Of a stretch of DNA of 64,000 nucleotides, positions 2,308 to 64,000 are shown in pieces (the first letter of the stretch is position 1; the number at the start of each line of letters is the position of its first letter). Origin of the DNA: Pomacea canaliculata (Eukaryota; Mollusca; Gastropoda; Architaenioglossa; Ampullariidae); the NCBI RefSeq assembly GCF_003073045.1, contig NC_037593.1:21574720-21638719 (forward strand). The letters are read 5' to 3'. The notes beneath the pieces were generated by a model that saw only the letters and a program-made list of their open reading frames with translations, ran no database searches and was not told the origin of the DNA. Made by a program: the position numbers and the translations under genes.

Positions 2308-3060
2308 TTACTGCCCATTATGCCGGTCGGCACGTAGGGCAGCGACAAAGGTCCTCCACTTTTGTCTATCCTGGGCTAACTTCCCCACAGTACCCCAGCT
2401 GTGGTTTAGGGTCTTTATCTCTGCCTCCACAGTTCGTCGCCAGGTGTTCTTGGGCCGGCCTCGCTTGCGTTTTCCTTCTGGGGTCCAGTGTAAGGCAGTT
2501 TTTATGATGGAGTTGCTCCCGCCTCGGAGGACGTGACCAATCCAGCGCCATCGCTTCTTCATCAGGATGGTGGACATGCTCTCTTGCCCACACTGGGCAA
2601 GCAGTTCCTCGTTGGAGATTGTCCTTGGCCAGAAGATGCCCAGGATTCTTCGCAGGCTTTTGGTGTGGAAGACTGACAGTTTGTTGAGGCCGCTGTCAGT
2701 CGTTCGCCAGCATTCCGAGCCATACAGAAGAGTGGACATGACCAGACTCTGGTAAAGTCTCAGCTTGGTATTGATGCTGTACTGTGTCGACTTCCAGATA
2801 TTGCTTAGGCTACAGAAGATGCCCCTGGCTTTGCTCAGTCTGCTCTGGATGTCACGGCCTGCTCCTCCATCTTGCTTGACCACGCTGCCCAAGTAGGTGA
2901 AGCTTTCAACCATCGGCAGGCCTTCTCCCTCTGTGCTGATCGGTGTTGTATTGGTGGTGTTCAGGGTCATCACTTCTGTCTTTGTCCGGCTGATGTGCAG
3001 TCCGACCTGCTGCGCAAAGGTGTTCAGGCGGGTCGTCTTCTCCTGCATGTGTCGGTGGGT
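2308..3060 (-). pseudogene. LINE reverse transcriptase, C-terminal fragment
   Basis: About 250 codons are open on the minus strand. The peptide contains LRLYQSLVMSTLLYGSECW, then RRILGIFWPRTISNEELL, KKRWRWIGHVLR and KRGRPKNTWRRTVEAEI. This order (thumb region, then the GHVLR and RGRPKxTWRR motifs) is typical of the C-terminus of non-LTR retrotransposon polymerases of the endonuclease-reverse transcriptase type. It ends at a stop just before the element's 3' tail. The palm domain is missing in this orientation because the 5' part is inverted (next entry). It acts only in retrotransposition and is a dead fragment. Confidence 0.85.
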
Positions 3061-3071
3061 GTGTGACAGCT

Positions 3072-3254
3072 GTGTTGGAAACAGTGACATCTACTTTGAG
3101 GTCGGGACCGGAGTGAGACAAGGCTGCGTGATGTCTGCCCTGCTCTTCAACCTTGTCATTGACTGGGTAATGCGTCGCACAACGGAAGATGAACCAAGGG
3201 GCATAAGATGGACACTCTCCACGAACTTAGAAGACCTAGACTTTGCCGACGACA
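3072..3254 (+). pseudogene. LINE reverse transcriptase palm fragment, inverted
   Basis: The plus strand encodes GNSDIYFEVGTGVRQGCVMS, then an F-x-D-D box (LDFADD) at the right-hand boundary. These are palm-domain motifs that lie N-terminal to the fragment on the opposite strand. The open frame runs a few codons past the target duplication into flanking DNA, so the apparent protein end is not element sequence. Confidence 0.8.
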
Positions 3255-5960: not shown

Positions 5961-8900
5961 TCATAGAATTGAATTTGACCAGAACTTTGGCTCGAAGTTG
6001 CTGTCTGTCACCCTAGTGCGCAGCTTTGTCATGATAAGTCCTGCCAGACTGAACAATCTCTCAACCGCAGCACTGCTTGGCAAGACGGTGTTGGTGCGCA
6101 AATAAATTTGTTTGACCGTGGGATATTTGTCCAGTTCACTGACATTCTGCGACAATCCAGACATCAGGAAGGTAGTTGTCTCAGGGGTGCCGGTAACTTC
6201 TTCATAAATGATGAAGTCTGCCTGTTCGTCTGTGCACTTGGTTGGGGATTGGACTGGCGTGTCCATCAATGCTGCCTCTGCAGTCAAGAGGGATCTGCAT
6301 TTCTCACGCAGGGTTTGTCCCCAGTCCACATCAACTTGCAGCTGAAACAATAATATGCACAATAATTAATGCTTTGTTTAATTTGGTTAAAATTTTTTTC
6401 TTATTGTTTTTTAATTAATTTTCTAAAATGTACTGGTTTTTATGTACTTATTTTGATTTGTACGCAAGTGTCAAAAGACCAGTGACAGTGAATATTATGT
6501 TGGTTTTTTTTTTTAATCAACATCCCCCTCCCCCCCCCCAAAAGTTTATTTTTTAATTTATTTACGGATATTTGTATAGCGCTTATTCTCGTTTAATCTG
6601 AGCTCTAAGCGCTTCACATTCTTCTCATTCTCAAAAGAACAGTGACACAGAGTAGCTTATAAATGAAGAAAAAATACATTGAAATAACGAAAACTCTCCC
6701 TCACCTTGGGTTCGACACAGTTGCAAGCAGGGTGTCTTGGTCCTTATAGGCATCAGCAAATCTGGTCTCCAACCCATTCAGGACAGCAGTAGCCAGGGGA
6801 CCACAGATTTCTAGCTTGGACTTCTGTTGCTCGATGCGGATCTTGAGGGTGTTGAGCTGAGGCAGGAGTGTCCCAAGCCCACGCACTTCTCGCCCTGCAA
6901 GTAGTTGAGGCATCTGGCAAGAGGCCCCATCACCTGCAACAAACAAATAACAGCCAAATGTTGAACCCCATTTTCAAAGGGAAAAAAGGGAAGCAACCAC
7001 ATACCTGTGTGTGTTGACATCTAACCTGAACCAAGGGGAATAATTTGAAAAATAGTATAGCTTAGCTCAAGGAAAAATTTTGCAATAATACATAAAAAAA
7101 CTTACCATAACAAACTCTTTCATGAAGAGCTGGTCTCTGGGGGTAAACCTTGGGAGGCCAAGGCATCTGCTAACTTGGTCAGCTGCTCAGCCGTGAGGTC
7201 TTGAAGGCATTGGACGGCATCATACGTAGAATTCCAGCGGGTTTGGTTTGGAATGATCATCTGCCGTCCCGTAGCCTCTTGAATGCTCTCTGTTGGACAT
7301 ATAAAAAAAAAAAATAAATAAACACACATTACAAACACACACACTCAAAACATACAAAATTAATTCTAAAAAAGACTGGGGTGGGTGGGAGGTGGAGGGG
7401 GAAGTGAAACAATTTTGTAAGTAAACAAATGAATTACCTGCAGCAGACACAACTCTGGACTGCTTATTCCAGACAGCTTGAGCTTTTGCAAACAGGGATC
7501 TGCTGGCAGTTCGGAATGCACCGTCCTGAAGGGCAGCCTCACTGTCCTTGCTTGCGACCAGGTTAAGCGTGTGGGCCGCACAACGCTGGTGAGGGGGCAG
7601 TACAACAGATGTTGATTCCCCTGGCAGGAACTCCACAGAAGTGATGTTCTCCTCTTCCTCATCACTGTCTGAGTCTTCTGGTGACTGATCCTGACCAAAC
7701 ACCCTGGAAAACAAAATGCAACGGAAATCATTAAATAATCTGAAGTGCATTTGGCCACATAGAACAAACTACTTTTGTTTTTAAAAAAAAATAAAGTGGT
7801 AACATAAGAATCTTCACATTGGAAGTACCTCGCCCACAGCCTGCTTGCTCATCCTAGATATATACAGCAGTACAGTAACGTACATAATCATCATAATACA
7901 TGTACACACCTGAAAGCTTTCACGAAGTTTGATGCGTTGTCCGTCACAATGCGAACAACTTTGTTCTGGATCTTGTACTCTCTCAGGATGGAGTTGAGCT
8001 GCGTGGCTAGGACATCATGGGTGTGCGAACCTTTCACTCTTTTGCAGGCCAATGCAAAGGATTTCTTTCATAGCCTTCCAAAAAATGGCAGGTAACTCCC
8101 AAGAATGACCTGAAACACAAAAAGGAAAAGTAACATTAAAACTTAACCCTAATTTACATTGGCATCAAAATATTCTTTATAGATGAAAAACAAATACCAA
8201 CTGAAATTAAACATTGAATTAAAAAATATAAAAAAACTTGCCTTCGATGAGCAGTCCAGCAATCTGCAGTGATGCATACATGCTCCACATTCTCCAGTTC
8301 ACCGATAATTTCTTCTTCAGCTCAGCCATCTTTCCTGAAAACACAATGCACAATGCAATTTTAGCAGATGAAATTTGAGTTCTGTGACCAAGAACAAAAG
8401 ACATTAATTGTGGATACATCACCCTACTTAAAATAAAACTAGTAAAACAAACAAAAAAGGAAGAAAAAAAATAGTAAAACTTACCTCCAACATTCTGTTC
8501 GCCGTTTTCCTGCTCATTAACTGGGTTTCCTGGCCAGTGAGTCTGGACACGAACTTTGAAAACTTCTCGTTCTCCAGCATGAAGAAGGACAGGTTGCATT
8601 CCAACAGGTAATCAAGGACGGCGGAATTGACGTCTGCTTTGCTGACGGTACTCTTGTGTTCCACTTTGAAGAGCTTCGAGACAGAGGGTTGGTCGTCGTC
8701 TTCCCTTTTCCGCTTTCGTGACGTTTCCAAGTCTTGAGTCAACTGCCTGGCAAGCAGTGGATGTTTCCTCTAAAATAAAACACATGAAAATGAAACAAAA
8801 TTTTAGAAGTCCATTCACAATCACAGCAAGTTTCTACCAAGCTAATTGTCATATTAAATTACTAGCATTAAATATAAAATCCTTCCAGCCACCATACTGT

Positions 8901-30600: not shown

Positions 30601-32941
30601 TCAGAAACAATACTCCAAACTTCTGATACATGTTGTTTGCATATTACATACATTGGCTTTTTTTGCGCATCTTTTATCCTGCTTGACTAATGTTAACATC
30701 CATTTCATGATTTAAATTTTTTTAACTGTTGTTTAATCTGAGCAAATGTACTGTAACCACCATAGCAAGTGCATATTCTATTTGTGATGCTATGCCATAC
30801 AATCTTCTATTCATTTTATTATTAAAACTAAGCACAGATCCATTTCTGCATGACTATTGAATACAACAGTAAAATTCCTATTAAACAGCTCTTTATCAAA
30901 GCCAAACAATGCAAATGAAAACTGTTTTTCAAACTGTCACAATTTACAAAAACTAGCTCTCAATAACTAGATGGAGATTTTTAAAATATTCTATAATTTT
31001 CTATGCCACTCAGGCAAAGTTTATAGACAGTAGGCAGATGTGGTCCCAGGAAGTTAAGGAATGGAAGTAAAAACTGTCAGACAAAATATTCCCAGTTTTA
31101 GAGGATTTTATAAAATTATCTCTATTTAAAGCTTTGCACCACAAGATATTGAAAACTGCAAAAAGTGCTTTACTTGCTTTCTCTCTCTCATTAAAACAAA
31201 GATGATCCTAATACTATTATTAGTATTAATGATCTTGACTTATACATGATGCACATGTCTACATTAATGATGAATGACAATAAATGTACACCTTATAAAT
31301 GTTTGTCATGTTAAACATAAAATCCACATTGCTATGGACAAATTCTATTTATAGCTTGATGAGATACCAGTAAATATTATTAAAACCATAATTTTTATAC
31401 TTTATACCTTTATACTGAAATAAAGCAACAAGCTAAAGCAAAAATAAAAATCTTCAAGGCAAAAATGGCAACTTTTAAATCTGAAGAATTTTCAGAAGTG
31501 TCTGAAATGGAACATCTCCCCAGTCAAAGACAGCAAGAAATCAATAATTATAACATTTTAAAATGTAGACTAAGTAACATAAAAGGGCAATTATTTACTC
31601 TGCATCGTAAACTCAAAGCACCAATGTCTACAATTAGCATGCACAGACTACGTTGTAGATTCTGAAATGACAATTCCTTACACTGTAAGACTATTATGTT
31701 TTGGCGGGTAGGGGTGTGCTTTTATTGTACTTACATTGTTCATGGTCAATGACAAGTTCAAGTAACTAGTTCAAGAACAAATCTAAACGCTGAGAAAGCC
31801 TCCACAGCTATTTTACACGTAAATGTGCTTGTGTAAGAATGAATTCTGCATGTTCACATGCCCTTATGGCATATAATACTTATTTTAAAAATTGCCAGCA
31901 TTTGTTCAGCAGAATAAATCAAATTTTACAGTTTTAGCAATCCACATTGCCAACAATGGATTACTTCTTCCCAATTTTTCACATGCAGCCAGCCTATTAA
32001 AAAAAAAAACTCAACCGTGATTTAATTGTGGTACATAGTGAAGCAGAAGTATTTTATAAAATAATGGAGTAGATGCAGCTCAAAACAGAACAGACGGAAT
32101 GAAGTCATGAGCTATGATTAACACCCTTTCTAGTGTTTACAAAGAAATTGCACTTGGAACTGCTGTCTTTAGATATATATATATATGCTAACCCACCAAA
32201 TTAGCTCTCAGATTACTGGCATATGAAGTACCTAGCCAAGACACATACAGGGTCATACACAACTGCCTCTGGTCACTCGCACCAAACAGGATTATGTGAC
32301 AGGCAGATAACACTGCAGTGGCCACATCACGATGAAGTAAACCACAGATTACCACAATCTTCTTAACAAGTATTTTCTGGTAGAGGTAAATAAGGAATAT
32401 AAGTATTGATCATAATGTTCTTTTCTTTTACTATACCAATGCTCTAATGATGACTAGGTTTTGACTTCAGTATCAAGAAGTATTTCAGTATGGCTGACAT
32501 GGGAGAATGATTATCAGCATCTTTTAGGAATGAGTGACCAGCTGCTTTCAGGGAAAACAATTTTTGTAACAGTTGAAAAGGCAAAAAGGCACTTTAGTGA
32601 CTCATGCTGACTTGTGCTTTTTTTTAAGAAAAAGTCCAATTCAAAAACCTTAGTGACAAACATGGATAAAAGAAATGTTTCAGTGGAAAGAAATTCTGAG
32701 AACCTGAATATGTTAGAGTATATAGAGGTAGATTGTTTCTTAGGTTTGATGAAAATAAGCTGCCAATAAATATGAGTCAATGAAATATAGTTTTGTACAC
32801 TGGCATAAATTTTTTTAAACAAAATAATAAAAACAAAAATTAGCATTCTAGCACAGATCAAGGGCAAAAATAAAGGCACTAAAAATGAAGGCAACCAGGG
32901 TAGGGGCGCTCAAGTGGTGTTCTCAGCTCCATCTTTTCTGT
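25520..32941. other. Gene-free 7.4 kb, possibly the long 3' UTR of the zinc-finger gene
   Basis: Uniform AT-rich DNA with no coding exon that I can support on either strand. Low-complexity patches include an A run with A-rich DNA at 27641-27740 and a TA run near 32172-32185. From about 26.9 kb to 32.9 kb there is no recognisable transposon end. Several TTTATT strings (AATAAA on the minus strand) occur, for example near 29252, 28287 and 26904. This would suit a long 3' UTR with alternative ends for the minus-strand zinc-finger gene. That is inference only. Confidence 0.4.
27641..27669. repeat. Poly(A) run
   Basis: Twenty-nine consecutive A residues, followed by A- and C-rich low-complexity DNA to about 27800. 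Open frames across it in both directions are artefacts. Confidence 0.95.
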
Positions 32942-41827
<8,886 letters not shown>

Positions 41828-42129
41828 TTTGGGAGCTACAATAGAGATGTTTGATCTAGGTTATGGGCACTCCCTCTCTAGCAACCAGTGCAGATCTTCA
41901 GAAATAGAAATTCATTTTTTGCAACAACAGAAAAGAGTATCCTTTTGCAACATTTACATATCTAAGACTACAACTCACATTCTGCTCCACTGTAGAGCCA
42001 CAAAGAATCTGAAGATAAATAAGCTTATAACACTTCCATGGATAATGTCTCAGCTGACAAAAACCAATACTCCTAAGTATTTTCTCTACATTCTGAATAG
42101 TAAAACTGAAAATTAAATAAAAACTTATT

Positions 42130-48944: not shown

Positions 48945-51900
48945 CTAACCATGGCCAAAAGGAAAAGCTAGAGAAGTAAAAGCAATTCTCTCTAGAGCCA
49001 TGGAATGCCCATCCCAACACCTCTGCTTGCTGTCGCAGAAAACAATGTAAAAGTATTGAGTCTTTTGATTGAAGCCTAGGATCAGGAGATGAGAGTGGCT
49101 ACTGTCCAGAGATGTTCTTACCACAATGGGCTTGCCTGCATTAACCACATCGTTCACTTGAGTCTGATTTAATGTTATTGTGTGCCTGTGCCTCATGAGG
49201 TATGGTCGAGTGGAAAATGATGTCACTAAGACCACACTCTGTTCCAGTTGAGTGTGACAAATGTTAATGTCATTGACAAGATTTGAGAAGACAATATCTT
49301 GCATGTCTTGCAAACTGACTTCTGCTCTCTTCGAAACAAGATACACATCCTCTGTTTTCGGCACAGTGTAATTTTCAACTGGATTTTTGATTGTGTTATT
49401 TCTATGTCTTCCAAAAGTCTCAGGAGTTGCTCTACTCAAAAGTACATCTTGATGGGTCTGTCGTTGCAAGAGGCCGGCAGGATGATGCATATATTTCTGA
49501 TGTTGGTTATTCAGAACAATGTCTTTTAACGCCTCCAGCTCTTTCCAGACAGAGCTGCCTTCAGCATGAACAGGCATGATAGGATAGCGCGTGCGCAGTA
49601 CGCCAACGCCTTTAATTTCCGGTAACATTATTCGAACGCCCGAAGCCACAACAGCCTTCACACTACCTTTGCGGTCAAGAACGCCCACTGTACCCTTAAC
49701 CGTGTCGGCAGGGTCAGGGTTCACTTCTCCTCCCAAAAAAAATTCGGCAGGTGTCTGATAAAAATAGCGATTATTGGTGCCGTTGTAAGCACGTTGCACA
49801 GTAGGTTTGCCATCTCTGCCGCCAGCAGTGACCGTCCTTCCAAGATGAGACAGGTTTTCTTCCTTGAAGTGAAGGTCGTAAGGGTTCCAGGAGTGCAGCG
49901 GCGTGAGGAAGACCAGCTCCAGGGGCACGGCGTACGTTACGCGTCGCCAGGCGCGCGTGCATGACTTGCTTTCTCGTGCAGCAGCCCTGCACGTCGTGAT
50001 GGACATAGGGGCCACCCGGGGCTGAGTAGTCTCCGCGACAAACAGGTTTCTGTCAGAGAAGCCGAGGTGGAAAACGCGTTCCCCCATGGCTCCAGCAGCG
50101 GAGAGTCTGTACCACCTGTGGTAGTAGCCTGTGTTCAGCGCGCGCTTATTGTTGGCGTTTAGCTTGACATCGCCCAGCACTCTGTCCAGCAGTCGAGCTC
50201 CATAGTTGTTGGTCCCTAGTCAATATAACATACATGCACATGAAAGAGAAGCGTTCATCCAACCTGCTTACCAACCGACCAGATAAACCAAGCAAAATAT
50301 TCTAGTTGATGGTGATGACCACGACAATAATTTATTGAAATAGTGGCGATGAAGAAGGATAGCCCCAGGATGACCACGAAATAGTGACTAGTATTCAGGA
50401 TGATTGGAAGCTAGACTGACCCGGTATCTGACTCATGATCTTGTCCAGAAGTGACCATTTGAAACTCCTGTCCTGCTTAAGGGTGTTTAGCGTGAATCTT
50501 GCAGCTCGTGTCCGCACAAATTCCTTCATGGTAGTCTTGCTTGCTAGCCGCGCGCCCAGGTCATCCACAGGCTGAAGGTCATTTGGGGAAAGGTCAGAGG
50601 AAATCGGATGACACAGCACCCTGTAGTTCCAGTGTGCAAGCGTGGGTACTCCTGTGTCGTTGAGGAGTAATGTGGGTAGAAAGGCATAATTCTCATCCTT
50701 ATGTTTGTCACCCGTGTAAGAAGTGTACCGAATTTTGTCCTGGAAAAAAGAATCCATGATACAATGTCTTCTTCGTCACTAACGGCATCCATTGGAATTG
50801 GGTTGCTTAAATTTAATAGGATCTTGTATAGTTTGGCTAAAATAGTACTCACCTGAAGATCTGCCCACTCAACAGCTTCTATGCGATGTCTTCGACTCTG
50901 AAACGGCTCTTCCAAAGTGGAGTCAGTTGTCCAGGCTCCCTCCAGGTAACACAGCAATGGTCTAGGACAACAGGATTACAATAGACTGGCTTTGTATATT
51001 CTATTACATATTGTGTTTGCAATTCAGAAAGTAGAAACTGCTCTTCATTAACAACCGTGACTGGTTTAAGGTAGTTTCATTTACTGCGCGTGGTGAACAC
51101 GGCCTGAGTCTCGTCTTGAGCAAATGTCAAAATACTTTACCTAAAGTAGGGCCTGTAGTCTCTTTGTCTGTGATGTTACCATCCTTCCACGCTTTGAACC
51201 ATTCCCTCATCTCCGCAATTTGCTCTTCCACCGATGCCTTGTCCCTCACACGAGGAGGCACGGGAGGGAAAGGAACGTCGTCTGTGGCGTGGTATACCCT
51301 TGTGCTCGCGGGCATGCGCAGGAGGTAGTCATTGTGACGTGTGCGGAAGTGGACGCCATTGAGCACTGCTTCAAACTCCCCGAGACCGCACGTGCGGGGC
51401 ATGTCTGCGTGGTCATGCATGGCCGCCATGCTGGAGCCGGTGTGTGTATTTGTGAAGTAGGGGCGTGTGCCGTCTCTGGCAAAACGAATCTGCAGAGACC
51501 AGCCGCCAGCAAGTGAATCATTCAAATTACATCGCCAGTATTTCAATTTTCTATGTGCAAGCAACCATCTTATAAGATTTGAAACCAAATAATAATAATA
51601 ATGCAAATCGCATACCCACACTCCTAAGGAGCATACTCTTAGCACTTAAGAACAAGAAAGAAACATGGACAGCATACGAGGGACAGGAAAACAAACAAAC
51701 AACATATGAACTATAAAACAATAAACAACCGTACTAAACGAAGAATAAAATCAAATACAGAAAACACAAAGAGGAACCAAATAACAAGATCAAGAGCTGA
51801 GACTAACATGATATTGCAAAAGGAAGGGTGTGACAAAGGACTAGCATTATGGGAAAGGTTGTTAGGAGTAATGTTTACGGAAGAGGTGTGTTTTCAGTGC

Positions 51901-55501: not shown

Positions 55502-57121
55502 TTAGCCTATTTTAATGCCGTCGTAGTTCAGACCGTTGTTGCTTTGCTTGAAGATGATGACAGCCGGGAAAAGAAAATTGATGCCCCAGTAGTCGCCGAA
55601 GACAAGCTCAAACCTTCTCCTGTATGGCATAGTCACCTTCATCTTTGCCTTCCTCACTGCTTCGCTCAGTGTTTTGCCTTGGGCGATGAGACTGTAGACA
55701 AAGGACGTGCGGGGTGATACAGGTGGTGGTATGATGTTAGGATCATTTATGAGAACAATACAATAGACAAAGGCCTCAAACAACAAAACCACCACACTAG
55801 ACAACATCATTGAAGACAGGAAAAGAATAGTGTACCAGTGAAAATCAGTGGGAGTAATGTTTGAGCGATACTGCATGGAGCAAACAGCATTTGAGAGAAA
55901 TTCGTGTTGTCGACAACGGTATCAAAGTAAAGTGAAGAAGAATGCGAATAAAGAGTTAGCAGACTGGTATACCTTATCGGGTGAGGAAAATAAAGTGAAA
56001 CATTCTGGTTTAGCAGCTTGCCACTAGTGATACTTATAATTATAGACATGACACAGTAGACAGACGAATAGACAGACGAGGAACGTACGCTAGCTGGGAC
56101 AGGAAGTACATGTTGCTGACAGGTGCTACGAAGCACAGGGTGTAGGCGTGGAAAGACCAACAGGCCGGTGGTCACGTCCATGGAGCCAGTCAGCACCTGC
56201 AGAAAGGTCAAAGGTCAACAGCGCTTTTTTGGTGCCGACATGTCAGCAGGTCCTGAGGATCTGAGGCTGTGGTGCTTGGGCTGTCTAAGCCCAAGGGGCA
56301 AGAAAACGGATTCATTAGATTGAGTTTCTTTACTTTCCACAAAATAAGAGCTGTGCGTTAGATTACCTGGTAAAAAAATAAATAATAAATAAGCACTCTC
56401 ACTGAGCAGGTAAACTAGTCGAGAAAGGATTGCTACTCACCAGGTAAAAAGAATAGGGCAGAAAATATCTCCACAGCGAGGACTGCGAGTCGTGATGGTG
56501 GCCGAGCCACGAGAGGGTCATGTAGGCGCCGATGTAACCCACGATGATGCAGTAGCCCGCTAACACCACGAAGTAGCGCTGGTTCCAGTGGCCGATGCAC
56601 ACCCCCATCATGTGACAATGGTGGTCGCGGCGCAGCACGCACACGTTGCAGAACTTGCAGTGGCTGGTCCGCGGAGGTACAAACATCCGGCACCTGCTGC
56701 AGTAGTGCCACGGCATGCCGCCCTTCTCACTCACCTCCAGCAGGTGGTGGCCATTGGCCGCAGCACTGGGGTCTGTCCTTTCGGAGGGGTATGGCTGCGA
56801 CAGCGACTTGTTGGCGCCAAAATGTTCGGCAGGTGTTTCCCCGGAGTAACGAGTGTCGAGATCAGGTCTGTCCCTGCTTGCCACGTATTTGCTGCTGAAG
56901 CAGATGGTGCAGAGCCAGTTGGCGCACGTCACTATGCACACGTACACGACGAACACCTTCAGGAAGTACTGAGTCCAGGGGTCGAAACTGGCGAAGATAA
57001 ACGGCACCAGGTAGTTGAGTGTGACGTACAACTGAGTGACGGCTTGGAATACGAACAAAACGCGCAAAGAGGTCTTGGCGTGGGAGCCATGTGGGGAACC
57101 ATCTCTGTAGTGTTTTTCCAT
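55502..57121 (-). CDS. DHHC-type palmitoyltransferase (ZDHHC22/24-like)
   Basis: Exons 56441-57121, 56089-56196 and 55502-55870 join in frame to 385 codons. The cysteine-rich domain spans about residues 140-190 (WHYCSRCRMFVPPRTSHCKF, then RRDHHCHMMGVCIGHWNQRY) with the DHHC active site at 166-169. Two membrane segments precede it (about 19-46 and 53-76) and one follows (183-206). A further segment is in the last exon (WYTILFLSSMMLSSVVVLLF). The tail holds FGDYWGINFLFP, a common C-terminal motif of the family. These enzymes attach palmitate to protein cysteines on Golgi and other membranes. Exon 2 has a more hydrophobic reading in another frame, but only the frame used here keeps phase at both joints. 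The ATG at 57121 is the first in frame after a stop. Confidence 0.88.
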
Positions 57122-59299
57122 TTCTCCCTCAAAGTCAACGGCTTTTCCCAGTGATCTTCGATGGGAACTGATGTATAGTTTGTCATGCTTCTGGTCTCAA
57201 TGCTTCAACAGAGACTCCGTGATGCTGCTGAAGCTGACAGGTCCCCGAGAACGCTTTTATTTCTTCTTAATTCACCTGTTTATGTTATTTGAGGATAACC
57301 ATTATGTGGTGTTAGTATTAGTGCAAGCCTGGAAATCAGAAATAAAACTAAACAAATCAAAATAGGTGAGACGGTAGGCACCAGGCAGCTCAGACTCAGA
57401 CAAGGAGCATAATGACAGAAGAGAAGGTGTAATCAGGAGAACGAAGAAGGCAAAACAATTTAACAAAAGACAAGAATCAAAGATTAATTCTAATCCAGTA
57501 CAATGTTTATAACTTTGAATTATTTTCTGCACTTATGTGTACAAATTGTTCTCAACAAGAAAGTGGTCAGCCTCAGAGACTCAGCCCGAGAAACTCAAAT
57601 TCCTTTCCTTAGTATAAGCGTGGATGTGTATAGATGGACTGCCGTCTGCCGAGACCAACGCTTAGCTTCTTGCGAAGTTCACCGCTGTTAGTCTCGGCGA
57701 GCCAAAACAAAGAATGTGACTAAACCGGAAGCTTTGTAGCCTAATGCCTCGTTTTAGGAGTTAATCTGAAATGTGAATAAACCGGAAGCTTTGTAGCCTA
57801 AAAGGCTATAGGAGTTAAATGGAAAACAAATCGTCTGCCAGCAGTCCAGTGATACAAGTTTGTGGTATGAGCAACAGTCCTTACTACAGGCGGATTCTAG
57901 CAGTTTATTTTCAGCTGGTTTCATGGGACGTTTTACAGAGCAAAGAACAGTCATCATCTGAGTCACTATTTTCTTCCCTTGCACCTTGAACTCTTGACAA
58001 TGAACTGCTTTTAGTCCATGAAGTTTAATTAGTTGTAAGATATAGTGCCTACTGTTAATGTGTGAGTAAGCATTTCCTTTGTAACGCGGACACAATGACA
58101 ACTTACTTCCAATCAGCGGACAAAGTGAGGTGGATCCTCCAGGTAGTTGTAGAGAACTAACCTGCCCACGATTACGATCCCACTGTTCGTCGTCACGTGC
58201 ACAGGCGAGTCACGCAGTCCACTGTGACCAATGCTGTGTGACTGCGACTGCCAGTGGTGTGTGCTGTGACAAGTCGTGCGGCAACCTGCACGTTCCTTCG
58301 CAATGCACACTCGACTGACTTGTCTTGATTAGCTACCCGGCCTCTCCTACCCGAGGACTACAGCTGTCTCAAGACAAGAAACGGCTTCACGCCGCGATCT
58401 AGCGCCTCCCAGTGTGAAGAGTGTGTGTGTACCTGTGTACCTGTCAGCCGACACACACGTTGCCAGGGGAGACAGCGGTAAATAATCTGGCTGATCGAGA
58501 ACTGGCGTGCCCCACGCCTGCCAGGCTTAGAGATCAACTGGTGTGCTAAACCGTTAGACTAGTATAAGATATACTGGTTACCAGAATCCCTTGAAGGAGT
58601 TTGAACACACCTCTAGTTCATATTGTTTGCCTACCTATACGTGTTTGTCTGTCTGTCTACGTTCCTGTCTGTGTTTGTGTCTTCTCTCTGTGTTCATAGA
58701 AAATTTAGTAAGTAAGTCAATAAGACCGTCGTATATAAAAGGTACACCCAGGAAGCGAAGGAAGTGAGTGAGAGGAAAGAAGATGAAGTGAAGAAAGACA
58801 TAAATCAGTTACAACATGATAATGCCCGTTAGTGGAGTAACCAGGCCTTGCTAGTGGCAAATGTCATTTATTCATCTCGTCCAGTCACTCCTTTGTAGTA
58901 TAGTAGTAGTAGGCTGTCATTAGCTCTCTTCCTCATCGTGATTATATATCACAAATAGTTTCCCGTCTGTGAGTGCGTGCAAGCATGGCAACAGATACGT
59001 ATATATATATACAAATACTCAAGAGCACACGCAGGTGATGAGTTTTGTAAAGGTAGTGTTTGACAGCCTGCACAGTGTCACACACTCAACACCAGCTAAT
59101 TAGTTTGCCTCGAGATGACATCGCTCCGCCTCACTGCATCTGTGGTGGCAAAGCACTCGTCATCGCTAGGAAGAAGCTCGTGCTCCGTCTCCAGGTTCGT
59201 GTCTGTTTATAGGGCTAAAGTAGCTTTTGTGATAAACCTTCACCGTTATACCAACCAATACCACTTACGGTAAAACATCACCAATCAAATTTTCATGTT
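57122..59299. other. Intergenic stretch with a dispersed repeat fragment
   Basis: No supported gene. A short duplication (AACCGGAAGCTTTGTAGCCT) occurs at about 57723 and 57779. DNA at 57745-57870 resembles 19210-19290 and is a dispersed repeat. TA- and GT-rich patches occur near 58998-59010. The part next to 57.1 kb may hold the DHHC gene promoter. Confidence 0.5.
57745..57870. repeat. Dispersed repeat fragment, second copy at 19210-19290
   Basis: Both copies share GCCTCGTTTTA followed later by TCTGCCAGCAGTCCAGT and ATACAAGTTTGTG in the same order and orientation, with a small insertion in this copy. It is probably an unclassified interspersed repeat. Confidence 0.65.
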
Positions 59300-59305
59300 T
59301 TTATT
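59300..59305 (-). terminator. Poly(A) signal of the MH2 gene
   Basis: TTTATT on the plus strand is AATAAA on the minus strand, about 610 bases after the stop codon. The open frame of 160 codons on the opposite strand (59485-59967) falls within this 3' UTR and is not taken as a gene. Confidence 0.4.
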
Positions 59306-59912
59306 GGGTCCCTCAAAAGAATGATTCAAATATATTGTCGTCAAATATTATTTTAATCACATTTTCTTGTATTAAATTTTAAAGCTCGTTTTTGCCTCCT
59401 TTATTATCATCGCTGACTGAATGTCAATTTTGGACAGCACTTCACTTGTAAGACATTTGAAACTACCCAGTCGTCACAGTATGTTTGTCACGTGTTATCG
59501 CCACTGAAACTTTCACAACACACATTACTCTCAACAGACAACAGATCTTCAAGCTCGTGGCTTCAGATGACAGTTTTTTCATCATGCAAAATCTCTCGTC
59601 AGAAATGCGACATTATTATCATGTTCATCTCAATCGACAGGAACTATTTACATTTCCAATTTCTCGACACCTTTTCTGCATTCTTACTAGAAAAGCACAG
59701 TTCGCAGCAATCTTGATGGTTCAGTTGTTCATGTTCATGAAAACAAAACATGATTTACTGCCAATGCAGCTACAAAGACAGATTCCATTTCAAAGAACTG
59801 TTCTACTTCCGGACAAAAGAAGCACTAAAAAACCCTCTTGGAAGAGACAGGCCAGAAGACAACAAATGCACTCAGGCTGTAGTATGGAGGGTCATCGTCT
59901 GAAGGCCGTTAT

Positions 59913-60499
59913 TCAGTCTTGTCCTGAAGTCTGGTCGTTAGAGGCATCTTTGGCAGCTTTGATGTGACTGATCTTGATGGCGGTCTCCAGCTTGGCCCAC
60001 TGCCGCACGCGCTCCCCTGACCTCCCTGCACATCCATACGACACAGTCAGTGGGTTAATACACAATAAACACTTTGAAAGTCACTTACCTTACAATGTAA
60101 GCACACAGAAAGTTCAGTGGGAAGGAAAATTATCATAATGACATTATGACAAGTACGTTAAGTGCACAAAACAATCGTCACTCCTACAAGTACTTCAAAG
60201 AGAGAAAACAGATGTTGATGATGATGATGTATGATGTTGATTTTCAGCACAAAAAAAGTCACACAAGTTCTACTAGTTTCTATTTGTTTGACTTTTATAG
60301 CAGTGCAGACTGACGATCACGTTGTCACGTCGTCACGTCGTCACGTACCTATTTTGGGAGCAGCAGGCCTCTGTAATGCTTCCATCGTAGTCCGGTCTTT
60401 GCCTGAAGTAAACAAAAGACTTGCTTGTACAGTAAACAAAGTACCTTGCTTGTATAGCTACACATACACATGCACGTATATAAACACAACACGTACATC

Positions 60500-60533
<34 letters not shown>

Positions 60534-63500
60534 TGACTGACTGGGTGCTCGGCCACTCTGGCGGTACTCTCACCGTACTGAGTGGGGATACACCCAGGCG
60601 GATAAGGTGCTGACTAAGGCCACTGCTCTACACACTCCAACACTAAAGGCTCGAGCGACAGGAACTAACGGGATCTGTATTTTCCCTGTAATCATAATAC
60701 AGTTAAGTAAACTTACTAGGTTGAATTTCCCAGCTGTAATAACCGATACTTTCTCCAACCAACTGTTTTTTGGCCCGCAGCTGCTCTCTCAGTTGACGCA
60801 TGCCCGCTTCTTTGTTGGCCAGGTGGTCTCTCTGGTCAGACTTCGCCCACCTGGATCTGTCCGTCTGGGTATCCATCCATCCATATACGGAAAATGCACA
60901 AAAGGTATAAGAATTCGGAGGTAGAATATTCAAATGTCTTAAAATAGTATTCTGCACATTTACATTTCAATAAACACCACAAAGCAACAAACTGGATGCT
61001 ACATTAACAAACACCTGAATGTAACACCTTACAAACATGTAGCGCGCGCGCATACACACTTGGAGTAGCCAACGGCTGATATTTTGTGTGGATGTGTTCA
61101 CCCACCCGTGGCCACGTATAGACGTACCCGTTGCTTGGCTGCACTTTCTTTGTATTTGTCTTCTGACTTCATTTGCGCCAAGGCGGCCTGCTGCTGTGCC
61201 TGGCGTTTTACTGGGAGTAGACAAAGAGGTAGACAGGTTAGTAGACGAAGAGGTAGACAGGGTAGTAGACAAAGAGGTAGACGGGTTCGTAGACGAAGAG
61301 GTAGACAGGGTAGTAGAAAAAGAGGCAGACAGGTTAGTAGACACAGAGGTAGACAGGTTAGTAGACACAGAGGTAGACAGGTTAGTAGACGAAGAGGTAG
61401 ACAAGGCGACAAGAGTTCCACGTTTCCACATGTCGCATGTAAGGGAACAGACAAGGACACAAGACGCCGACACTGACACCACACCTAAGTACTAAAAATG
61501 AGAAGATGGAATGATGAGAAGGCTGCCAGCATGACTAGGGGGAATGGATGAGGTCCAAACTGTTCATTCAAGGAAGGTCGTATGCAGTTGTCACGTGAAG
61601 GGGGAAGGCACTATGAGGTTGTCGAACGGAGGAATTATACTGATATCACTGTTGTGTTTTGTTTTTACAGAAAGCATACAAGTATACAATATGTGGTAAT
61701 ACTTTCGATTTTATTTACTTACAATTTACTGTTTCACTTCTTTACTGAATGTTAAATTTAAGTACAATTTTATGAACGTTAATAACCTTACAAAGCAATG
61801 TCAAGGGTAGTATTCGGGGTGGTATTCGGTAGGATGTACATCCTTGTACCTGTAATACGTACTCCTACTCGGACATCCCTAATACTTGCGTTACCTTCTG
61901 GTGACTCGAGCTCCTTAAGGGCGCTGATGCTAATGATGTACAGCCAACATGGCGTCTCGAGGTCGTCTGCGTCATCTTGACCAAAGCTGAGGCCCACCAA
62001 GCACGCGCGACGCAGTCTCTCCTTGGAAAACTCTCCTCGCTTCAGTTCCAGTGCGATTGTGCTTCGGAATTCTTTCATGTCAAATATCTGCAACAAGAAG
62101 GACAACAAGTTCGCTGAGCAAAACCAAATTGCAGATGGTCAGATGGCAACTGTTCGAGAGGTCACCTGTCCGGCTGTTTGCCCTTTGTTTCTGTGATCGA
62201 GATCGTTGACCGTCTTGCAGCAGATGTTTCCAGTTGTGTCCTCTCATTTTAAAGCGGATGTTCTCTGTGTTTCTGTTTCTTCAATCTCCATTTTTCGAAT
62301 ACTGACCGACCTCCGTTTGGATATTCAGACTGCGACTTGTTTCTGATTGGTGGTCAATCATCGATGTTCTAGATACTTCGGGTGTTTCCCTGCTTCTAGT
62401 GACGGTGTTACTTCGTGAAGTTTCCTCGATAATTTTGATCTTCAATTACAGTGGTTGCTATGGTGACTGGTGTGCGTTGATCTATTGACATCAAAGTAAA
62501 CATCAAGTCAGCTTGCCTTTGCAACTTCTCACAGTCATCTTGCACACGCACGCGCGTGTTGGAGGGTTAGGGAGAATGTGTGTGTGTGTGCATGTGACGT
62601 GTGACCGTGCTCACGTGCCTTTATGTGACGTTCCTCTGTTTCCAACATTGTGTATGTGTGTACATCTCTTTAAGCCTGACAGGTGCAGTGTGATGACGCT
62701 TTATAAGTATGAATTATTGTTGTTATTTTTATTTACAGACCTTGATTGTCTCATCAAAGGGGAGATTGCCCTTTTGCAGGAGGACGTCAGCAGAGAGACA
62801 GAAGGAATGCGGCTGTTGCAGACCTTTGACCGTGACAGTCAGCTCCGTCAGACGACACGCTAGAATGTTGCCGTCAGAGTCACCCGTTAAACGCACGCCC
62901 TGCCAACAACACAAATATTGGTCAGTGCAGGTAGGAGATGGTAAAGCAGCTCCTAGTATATTTATAGATATATACTTATTATCTTTGAGGAGCGGTGGGG
63001 TAGAGGCTTAGATTGGCGGGTAAGTGACGTTTTGATGAAAGTCTGCCCTCAGTGGTTAGAGAGAGGTTAAAAGAGTTGAATCGTCCGGAATCAGATATTA
63101 CTCATTTGCACGGAAGATAAACATAATATTCTAATTTCTATTTCATCTGATAGACTGATTGTAATACAATTTGATGTTCTTATAGTTTTTAGCGGTTGGA
63201 GGTGATGTCATGCATTGGAGGGAGAGCTGTGGAGGCTAAAAGCAGCTGGACACTTACCTCGCGAATCTGGTCGCGGAAATATGCAGTGTCTCTGTCTCTC
63301 AGGCGATTCTGGAACTGTCTTAAGCCAAACTTGGCAACCGTGGCTCGTTCAGCACTGATCAAAGTGAAATGTACTGACCGATAATTTAGGGGAGGGATCA
63401 GAAATCAGCTAATAGTCATCCTTTCAACAACAATTCAACAGAAACACAAACACACACACACACAAACACGAAGAAGGGAAGAGATCAGGAGCGTTGATCA

Positions 63501-63762
63501 ACAAATTGTCTTGACGGATGGTGACTGAAGAAGTGGAAGCACAGCACAGTGTATAAAATGTTCTCTCAGAACAAGTACAGAGGTGACGTCATCATTAAAC
63601 CCACCTGTCTTCGTCCACTGAGGTAAAGGAACCGTCGATCACGACCGAGCGTGAACTCAGGTAGGTGCTGGTGACTTGTCTCCCCCTCTCCATGTAAATC
63701 ACCTTACCCCAGGTTTTTGACTCGAGCTTGTTCAGGGACACGAGTACTCCGTAAATAAGTTC
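59913..63762 (-). CDS. Divergent SMAD-fold (MH2) protein, Expansion-like, 3' part of gene
   Basis: Eight exons join in frame to 334 residues: 63605-63762, 63258-63354, 62741-62899, 61895-62087, 61128-61210, about 60717-60864, 60349-60402, 59913-60025. The gene continues beyond the right edge. The first 210 residues follow the MH2 order of SMADs: WGKVIYMERGRQV, VVIDGSF, RDTAYFRDQIREGVRL (SMAD: RRHIGRGVRL), GNILACRLTELTVTV, IFDMKEFRSTIALEL (SMAD: IFNNQEFAALLAQSV), RACLVGLSFG, ETPCWLYI (SMAD: STPCWIEL). The C-terminal SSxS receptor-phosphorylation tail is absent; instead there is a charged, coiled-coil-prone tail (KRQAQQQAALAQMKSEDKYK). The GNILxxRL variant recalls Expansion, a protostome MH2 protein known from Drosophila tracheal tubes. 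No MH1 domain is in view. The start of exon 6 (60864) is uncertain. Confidence 0.82.
60501..60540. repeat. (CAGA)n microsatellite
   Basis: About eight CAGA units, then GACT units, in an intron of the MH2 gene. Confidence 0.95.
61217..61405. repeat. 24-bp minisatellite, about eight copies, next to a splice acceptor
   Basis: The unit is GTAGACAAAGAGGTAGACAG plus GTTA, with variants ending GGTA. It ends a few bases before the acceptor of the 61128-61210 exon. On the gene's strand it is almost entirely pyrimidine-rich (CTACCTCTTTGTCTAC), so it forms the polypyrimidine tract. Because 24 is a multiple of three, three frames stay open across it; these are not genes. Confidence 0.95.
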
Positions 63763-64000
63763 CTGAAAAAAGAAGTGCTGAATTTTAATAAATAAATATT
63801 TAAGAGAGGAAGAGCATGAGAGGCGACTAGAGAAAGATGGAGGAGCCTGTAGAGAGAAGTATTGGGAGGGGGGTGTGTGTGGTGTGTGTGAGAGCTATGG
63901 CCTTCTGACCAGTTTGAATATTTCATGCATACTAATTAGGTCTAAGTTCGTATGCACTTCAAGTCTTTCGTAATGTCCATGATCACTCTTTTGTTTAACA

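Follow-up and report, generated by a model that had tools for sequence, protein, structure and literature searches.

A probable Expansion/Rebuf-family MH2 gene with a charged C-terminal tail in invertebrate genomic DNA

The window (the whole 64,000-nucleotide stretch of DNA analysed here) probably carries, at a likelihood that we put near 0.93, the MH2 part and C-terminal tail of an Expansion/Rebuf-family gene from an invertebrate animal. The closest known system is Drosophila Expansion (CG13188, PDB 4r9p), together with its relative Rebuf (CG13183), although likeness to this pair was gauged against Expansion only. With Expansion, the predicted protein shares a short L3 loop, five extra residues ahead of an (I/L)FDMK motif and a tail that continues past MH2; it differs in a domain identity of only 33.5% and in an N-alpha helix of which at most the end lies within the window. 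SMAD1, SMAD2, Mad, SMAD4 and SMAD7 belong to the same MH2 family (Pfam PF03166), but the window protein departs from all five in an L3 stretch shorter by six residues, the lack of SSxS, an MH2 domain that is not C-terminal and identities of 24-27%.

Gene model, MH2 domain and tail

Eight exons on the minus strand, from 63762 to 59913, read in a single frame through 334 residues to a stop codon, exactly reproducing the coordinates and length given in a preliminary description of this DNA. AG acceptors (8/8) and GT donors (7/7) flank the exons and no internal stop interrupts them, but these sites were used in choosing the exons and the boundaries are thus a matter of consistency, not independent proof. 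Exon 1 opens mid-protein; the gene is incomplete in the window and its start lies past the edge at 64000.

63605 to 63762, minus strand: exon 1, first part of MH2 and possible end of the N-alpha helix (ELIYGVLVSLNKLESKTWGKVIYMERGRQV...); splice sites, frame and alignment to Expansion 4r9p from residue 5
63258 to 63354, minus strand: exon 2, MH2 core; splice sites, frame and alignment to Expansion and SMADs
62741 to 62899, minus strand: exon 3, MH2 core including the five extra residues common with Expansion; splice sites, frame and alignment
61895 to 62087, minus strand: exon 4, IFDMKEF motif, short L3 loop, PCW motif and end of MH2; splice sites, frame and alignment
61128 to 61210, minus strand: exon 5, predicted start of the charged tail (VKRQAQQQAALAQMK...); splice sites, frame and codon score, without homology
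60717 to 60864, minus strand: exon 6, predicted charged tail; splice sites, frame and codon score, without homology
60349 to 60402, minus strand: exon 7, predicted tail, 54 bases; splice sites and frame only
59913 to 60025, minus strand: exon 8, predicted end of the tail (...NDQTSGQD) and stop codon; splice sites, frame and codon score, without homology
59300 to 59405, minus strand: candidate poly(A) signals starting at 59405, 59357 and 59305; hexamer match only

Exons 2, 4, 5, 6 and 8 had codon scores above the 95th percentile of noncoding stretches; those of exons 1, 3 and 7 fell within the noncoding range (at or below that percentile), and exon 7 scores higher in an alternative frame than in the chosen one. 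Because the training set consisted of six reading frames from the window, one of them (48948-50219) without a known family, these scores are weak evidence either way; the background set also included two of the three null regions, a bias towards low null scores. Exons 1 and 3, moreover, are MH2-coding by homology yet fail the codon score, which marks it as a weak test. Exons 1-4 are carried by homology rather than by their splice sites. The intron immediately upstream of exon 5 contains a 24-base tandem repeat of 7.8 copies (61216-61403), and since the unit is a multiple of three, it produces long reading frames on both strands that are probably spurious.

The domain part, 202 residues encoded by exons 1-4, matched Pfam MH2 with an E-value of 9e-22 over profile positions 2-172 of 174, and the whole product did so at 3e-21; this HMM check bore out the initial identification of an MH2 protein. 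NCBIfam returned nothing at E <= 1. A profile built from Expansion and five SMADs, with the window sequence left out, gave the product 80.9 bits. A SMAD-only profile gave 45.4 bits for the product and 51.9 bits for Expansion, a match that is expected for a shared domain and is not specific.

Six-frame searches of the window, covering reading frames of at least 20 residues, recovered the same exons directly. The Expansion and SMAD profile found exon 4 (E 3.3e-7), exon 1 (E 8.9e-5) and, weakly, exon 3 (E 0.063), and Expansion as a query likewise placed exon 4 best (E 1.8e-10), followed by exon 1 (E 0.0017) and a weak exon 3 (E 0.27). Exon 2 alone was found in neither search, and a single mononucleotide shuffle of the window yielded zero profile hits at E <= 1. 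No convincing second MH2 copy appeared in the six frames: a stray profile match at 2809-3063 on the plus strand (E 0.14) and three further matches to the Expansion query (E 2.2, 8.4 and 8.7) are read as chance. A search for prokaryotic and viral relatives, made with exon 4 only, gave pattern matches in 274 genome-contig and 12 viral-contig stretches, none of which was confirmed.

Past MH2 the frame continues for 132 residues in exons 5-8 and ends in TSGQD, so that the SSxS terminus is absent, as had been claimed at the outset. A variable C-terminal region after MH2, as in Expansion and Rebuf, is therefore predicted from these exons. The tail holds 45 charged residues (net charge +11), three prolines and six glycines, and is free of proline across 76 residues; its charge and this stretch make a helix plausible. 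Of the earlier picture of a charged, coiled-coil-prone tail, the charge was confirmed (45/132 residues), and the coiled coil stays conjectural: among 1000 shuffles, 425 did as well on a home-made heptad score, and 90 did so once alanine was no longer counted. At E <= 10, Pfam listed only TRIP4_3rd for the tail (E 1.6, under its cut-off).

Elsewhere in the window, ten frames were scanned, and three of them carry a clear or marginal known domain free of transposons, the nearest being a DHHC palmitoyltransferase frame at 56402-57196 (minus strand, E 4.2e-20) on the same strand as the Expansion-type gene. A C2H2 zinc-finger frame with seven scored fingers lies at 36669-38132 (minus strand), and further zinc-finger-like frames were seen by eye from about 32900 to 41900. 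The frame at 48948-50219 (minus strand) encodes 424 residues, for which Pfam gave nothing at E <= 0.01 and a comparison with solved structures nothing at E <= 0.1. Putative mobile-element traces comprise an apparent part of a LINE reverse transcriptase, judged by eye, at 2311-3090 (minus strand), where DUF6451 fell just under its cut-off, and an apparent hAT transposase end at 5964-6365 (minus strand, E 0.00032), also just under cut-off. The window contained no tRNA that we could find, and no Rfam family reached its gathering score there.

Affinity to Expansion and to SMADs

Among solved structures, the best match of the window protein was Drosophila Expansion 4r9p, identified as such in PMC4388265, with an E-value of 4.4e-23 and 85.7 bits. 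SMAD1, the best SMAD, followed at 6.1e-5 and 26.5 bits, 59 bits lower, and SMAD4 and SMAD7 chains were absent from the matches at E <= 10. As a yardstick, SMAD7, the most divergent SMAD tested, reached 77 bits with SMAD1 as query and 86.8 bits with SMAD4, while Expansion scored at most 27.9 bits against any SMAD chain. In a seven-protein alignment, the identity of 33.5% to Expansion compares with 27.4% to SMAD1, 26.5% to SMAD2, 25.9% to SMAD4, 25.2% to Mad and 23.9% to SMAD7.

Two indels unite the window protein with Expansion. The L3-bearing stretch, from a conserved F to P(C/I)W, spans 10 residues in both proteins and 16 in all five SMADs, in line with the L3 loop of 11 residues in Expansion versus 17 in SMADs reported in PMC4388265. 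Five columns ahead of the (I/L)FDMK motif are filled only in these same two proteins, which continue with FDMK and an F two residues on; the corresponding site reads FNNQ in SMAD1, SMAD2 and Mad, FDLR in SMAD4 and FDYE in SMAD7. Further differing columns comprise one all-SMAD column and eight at the N-terminal edge, which count for nothing because that edge is where the sequences were cut. PMC4388265 stresses the N-alpha helix, along with the short L3 loop, as a mark of the new domain. Only the end of this helix can fall in exon 1 (ELIYGVLVSLNKL), and its remainder would belong to a further exon past the window edge at 64000. The window protein also has extra residues of its own, SAERATVA.

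A maximum-likelihood tree (LG+G4) paired the window protein with Expansion, apart from the five SMADs, at an SH-aLRT of 99.8 and an ultrafast bootstrap of 100. The comparison drew on one Expansion sequence and bears on membership of Expansion/Rebuf rather than on a place within it. Since this tree is unrooted and holds seven proteins, has long branches (0.94 for the window protein, 1.12 for Expansion) and places SMAD4 with poor support (24/39), we weighted the two indels above it. In the literature, Reb has also been grouped with a human SMAD3 isoform (PMC6176944), an isoform that served as an out-group in PMC4305360.

The scores, the tree and both indels side with Expansion, and on these grounds a SMAD origin was rejected. 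A divergent SMAD, perhaps inhibitory or lineage-specific, in which SSxS disappeared and a tail was acquired, would suit the plain MH2 label in Pfam, the identity to SMAD1 and the 45.4 bits from the SMAD-only profile, and any MH1 part of it would fall beyond the window edge. Yet even SMAD7, divergent as it is, keeps 77 and 86.8 bits to SMAD1 and SMAD4, far from the 26.5 bits that the window protein retains to its best SMAD, while the 85.7 bits to Expansion, the absence of SMAD4 and SMAD7 from the matches and the two common indels are hard to reconcile with such an origin, to which we give very little weight. A fraction more credence, still slight, goes to a third MH2 lineage, belonging with neither SMADs nor Expansion, whose tail would have its own function with no part in chitin export. 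The long branches to both groups, the private residues SAERATVA and a tail without a recognised domain are what such a lineage might display; against it stand the L3 shortening and five-residue insertion held in common with Expansion, the shared FDMK with its following F, and the report of Expansion from Mollusca and Annelida (PMC4388265).

Least probable of all is that the locus is a pseudogene, or that its exons line up by accident. The unremarkable codon scores of exons 1, 3 and 7 and the lack of homology in exons 5-8 would fit, but eight exons with canonical splice sites and no internal stop, and near-complete coverage of the MH2 profile, weigh heavily the other way. Overall, membership of the Expansion/Rebuf family remains the preferred reading. 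The preliminary description had proposed either a relative of Expansion or a separate MH2 lineage; the 59-bit lead over the best SMAD, the tree and the two indels sustain the former and leave no need for the latter.

A possible part in chitin export

Because the phosphoserine-reading loop is cut short and SSxS is missing, we infer that the window protein would support neither SMAD trimerisation nor TGF-beta signalling. Expansion and Rebuf themselves are described as having no part in TGF-beta signalling in Drosophila (PMC4388265). Extracellular chitin in the fly is reported to require the two proteins along with the chitin synthase Kkv, a combination that is also sufficient for it (PMC9894549). 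According to the same source, versions without MH2 fail to restore extracellular chitin, and MH2 is needed for chitin translocation and not for placement of the protein, while MH2 alone neither reaches the apical membrane nor functions. The CM2 motif in the tail is said there to aid apical placement, but in overexpression tests chitin was still deposited without it.

By analogy with Drosophila, the window protein would act at the apical membrane, positioned by parts outside MH2, and its MH2 domain would recruit or bind partners that allow chitin synthase to extrude the polymer it makes. It may thus be the membrane-side partner of a chitin synthase, and the chitin exported by a mollusc or annelid in this way could be that of shell matrix, radula or chaeta. 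The earlier suggestion of a non-canonical regulator or scaffold is narrowed to chitin translocation by the family role in Drosophila (PMC9894549). We regard a chitin role for the window protein as the likeliest one, at about even odds. Other roles argued for the fly genes count against it: PMC4388265 cites one in tracheal branches, through receptor tyrosine kinase signalling, and PMC6176944 one in the recycling of luminal matrix components. Gut Chs2 is reported to be independent of Expansion and Rebuf (PMC12431666).

Functions of the family are described as apparently conserved in protostomes, with Mollusca, Annelida and Arthropoda named (PMC4388265); given the report from Mollusca, a member in a mollusc or another spiralian is expected. 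In our searches of open-licence papers, we found none testing Expansion or Rebuf function in a mollusc or annelid. Lophotrochozoan chitin synthases are reported to include a myosin head in most clades and to number ten copies in one snail (PMC3942024). Tentatively, and with somewhat more doubt than attaches to the chitin role itself, lophotrochozoan Expansion might be a switch that licenses some chitin synthases for export to shell, radula or chaetae, in which case the two-part chitin export machine of Drosophila would predate arthropods. Ectodermal chitin export in Drosophila depends on Expansion and Rebuf, and a clear family member with a short, readable tail would offer a handle on whether shell and radula chitin share this export step.
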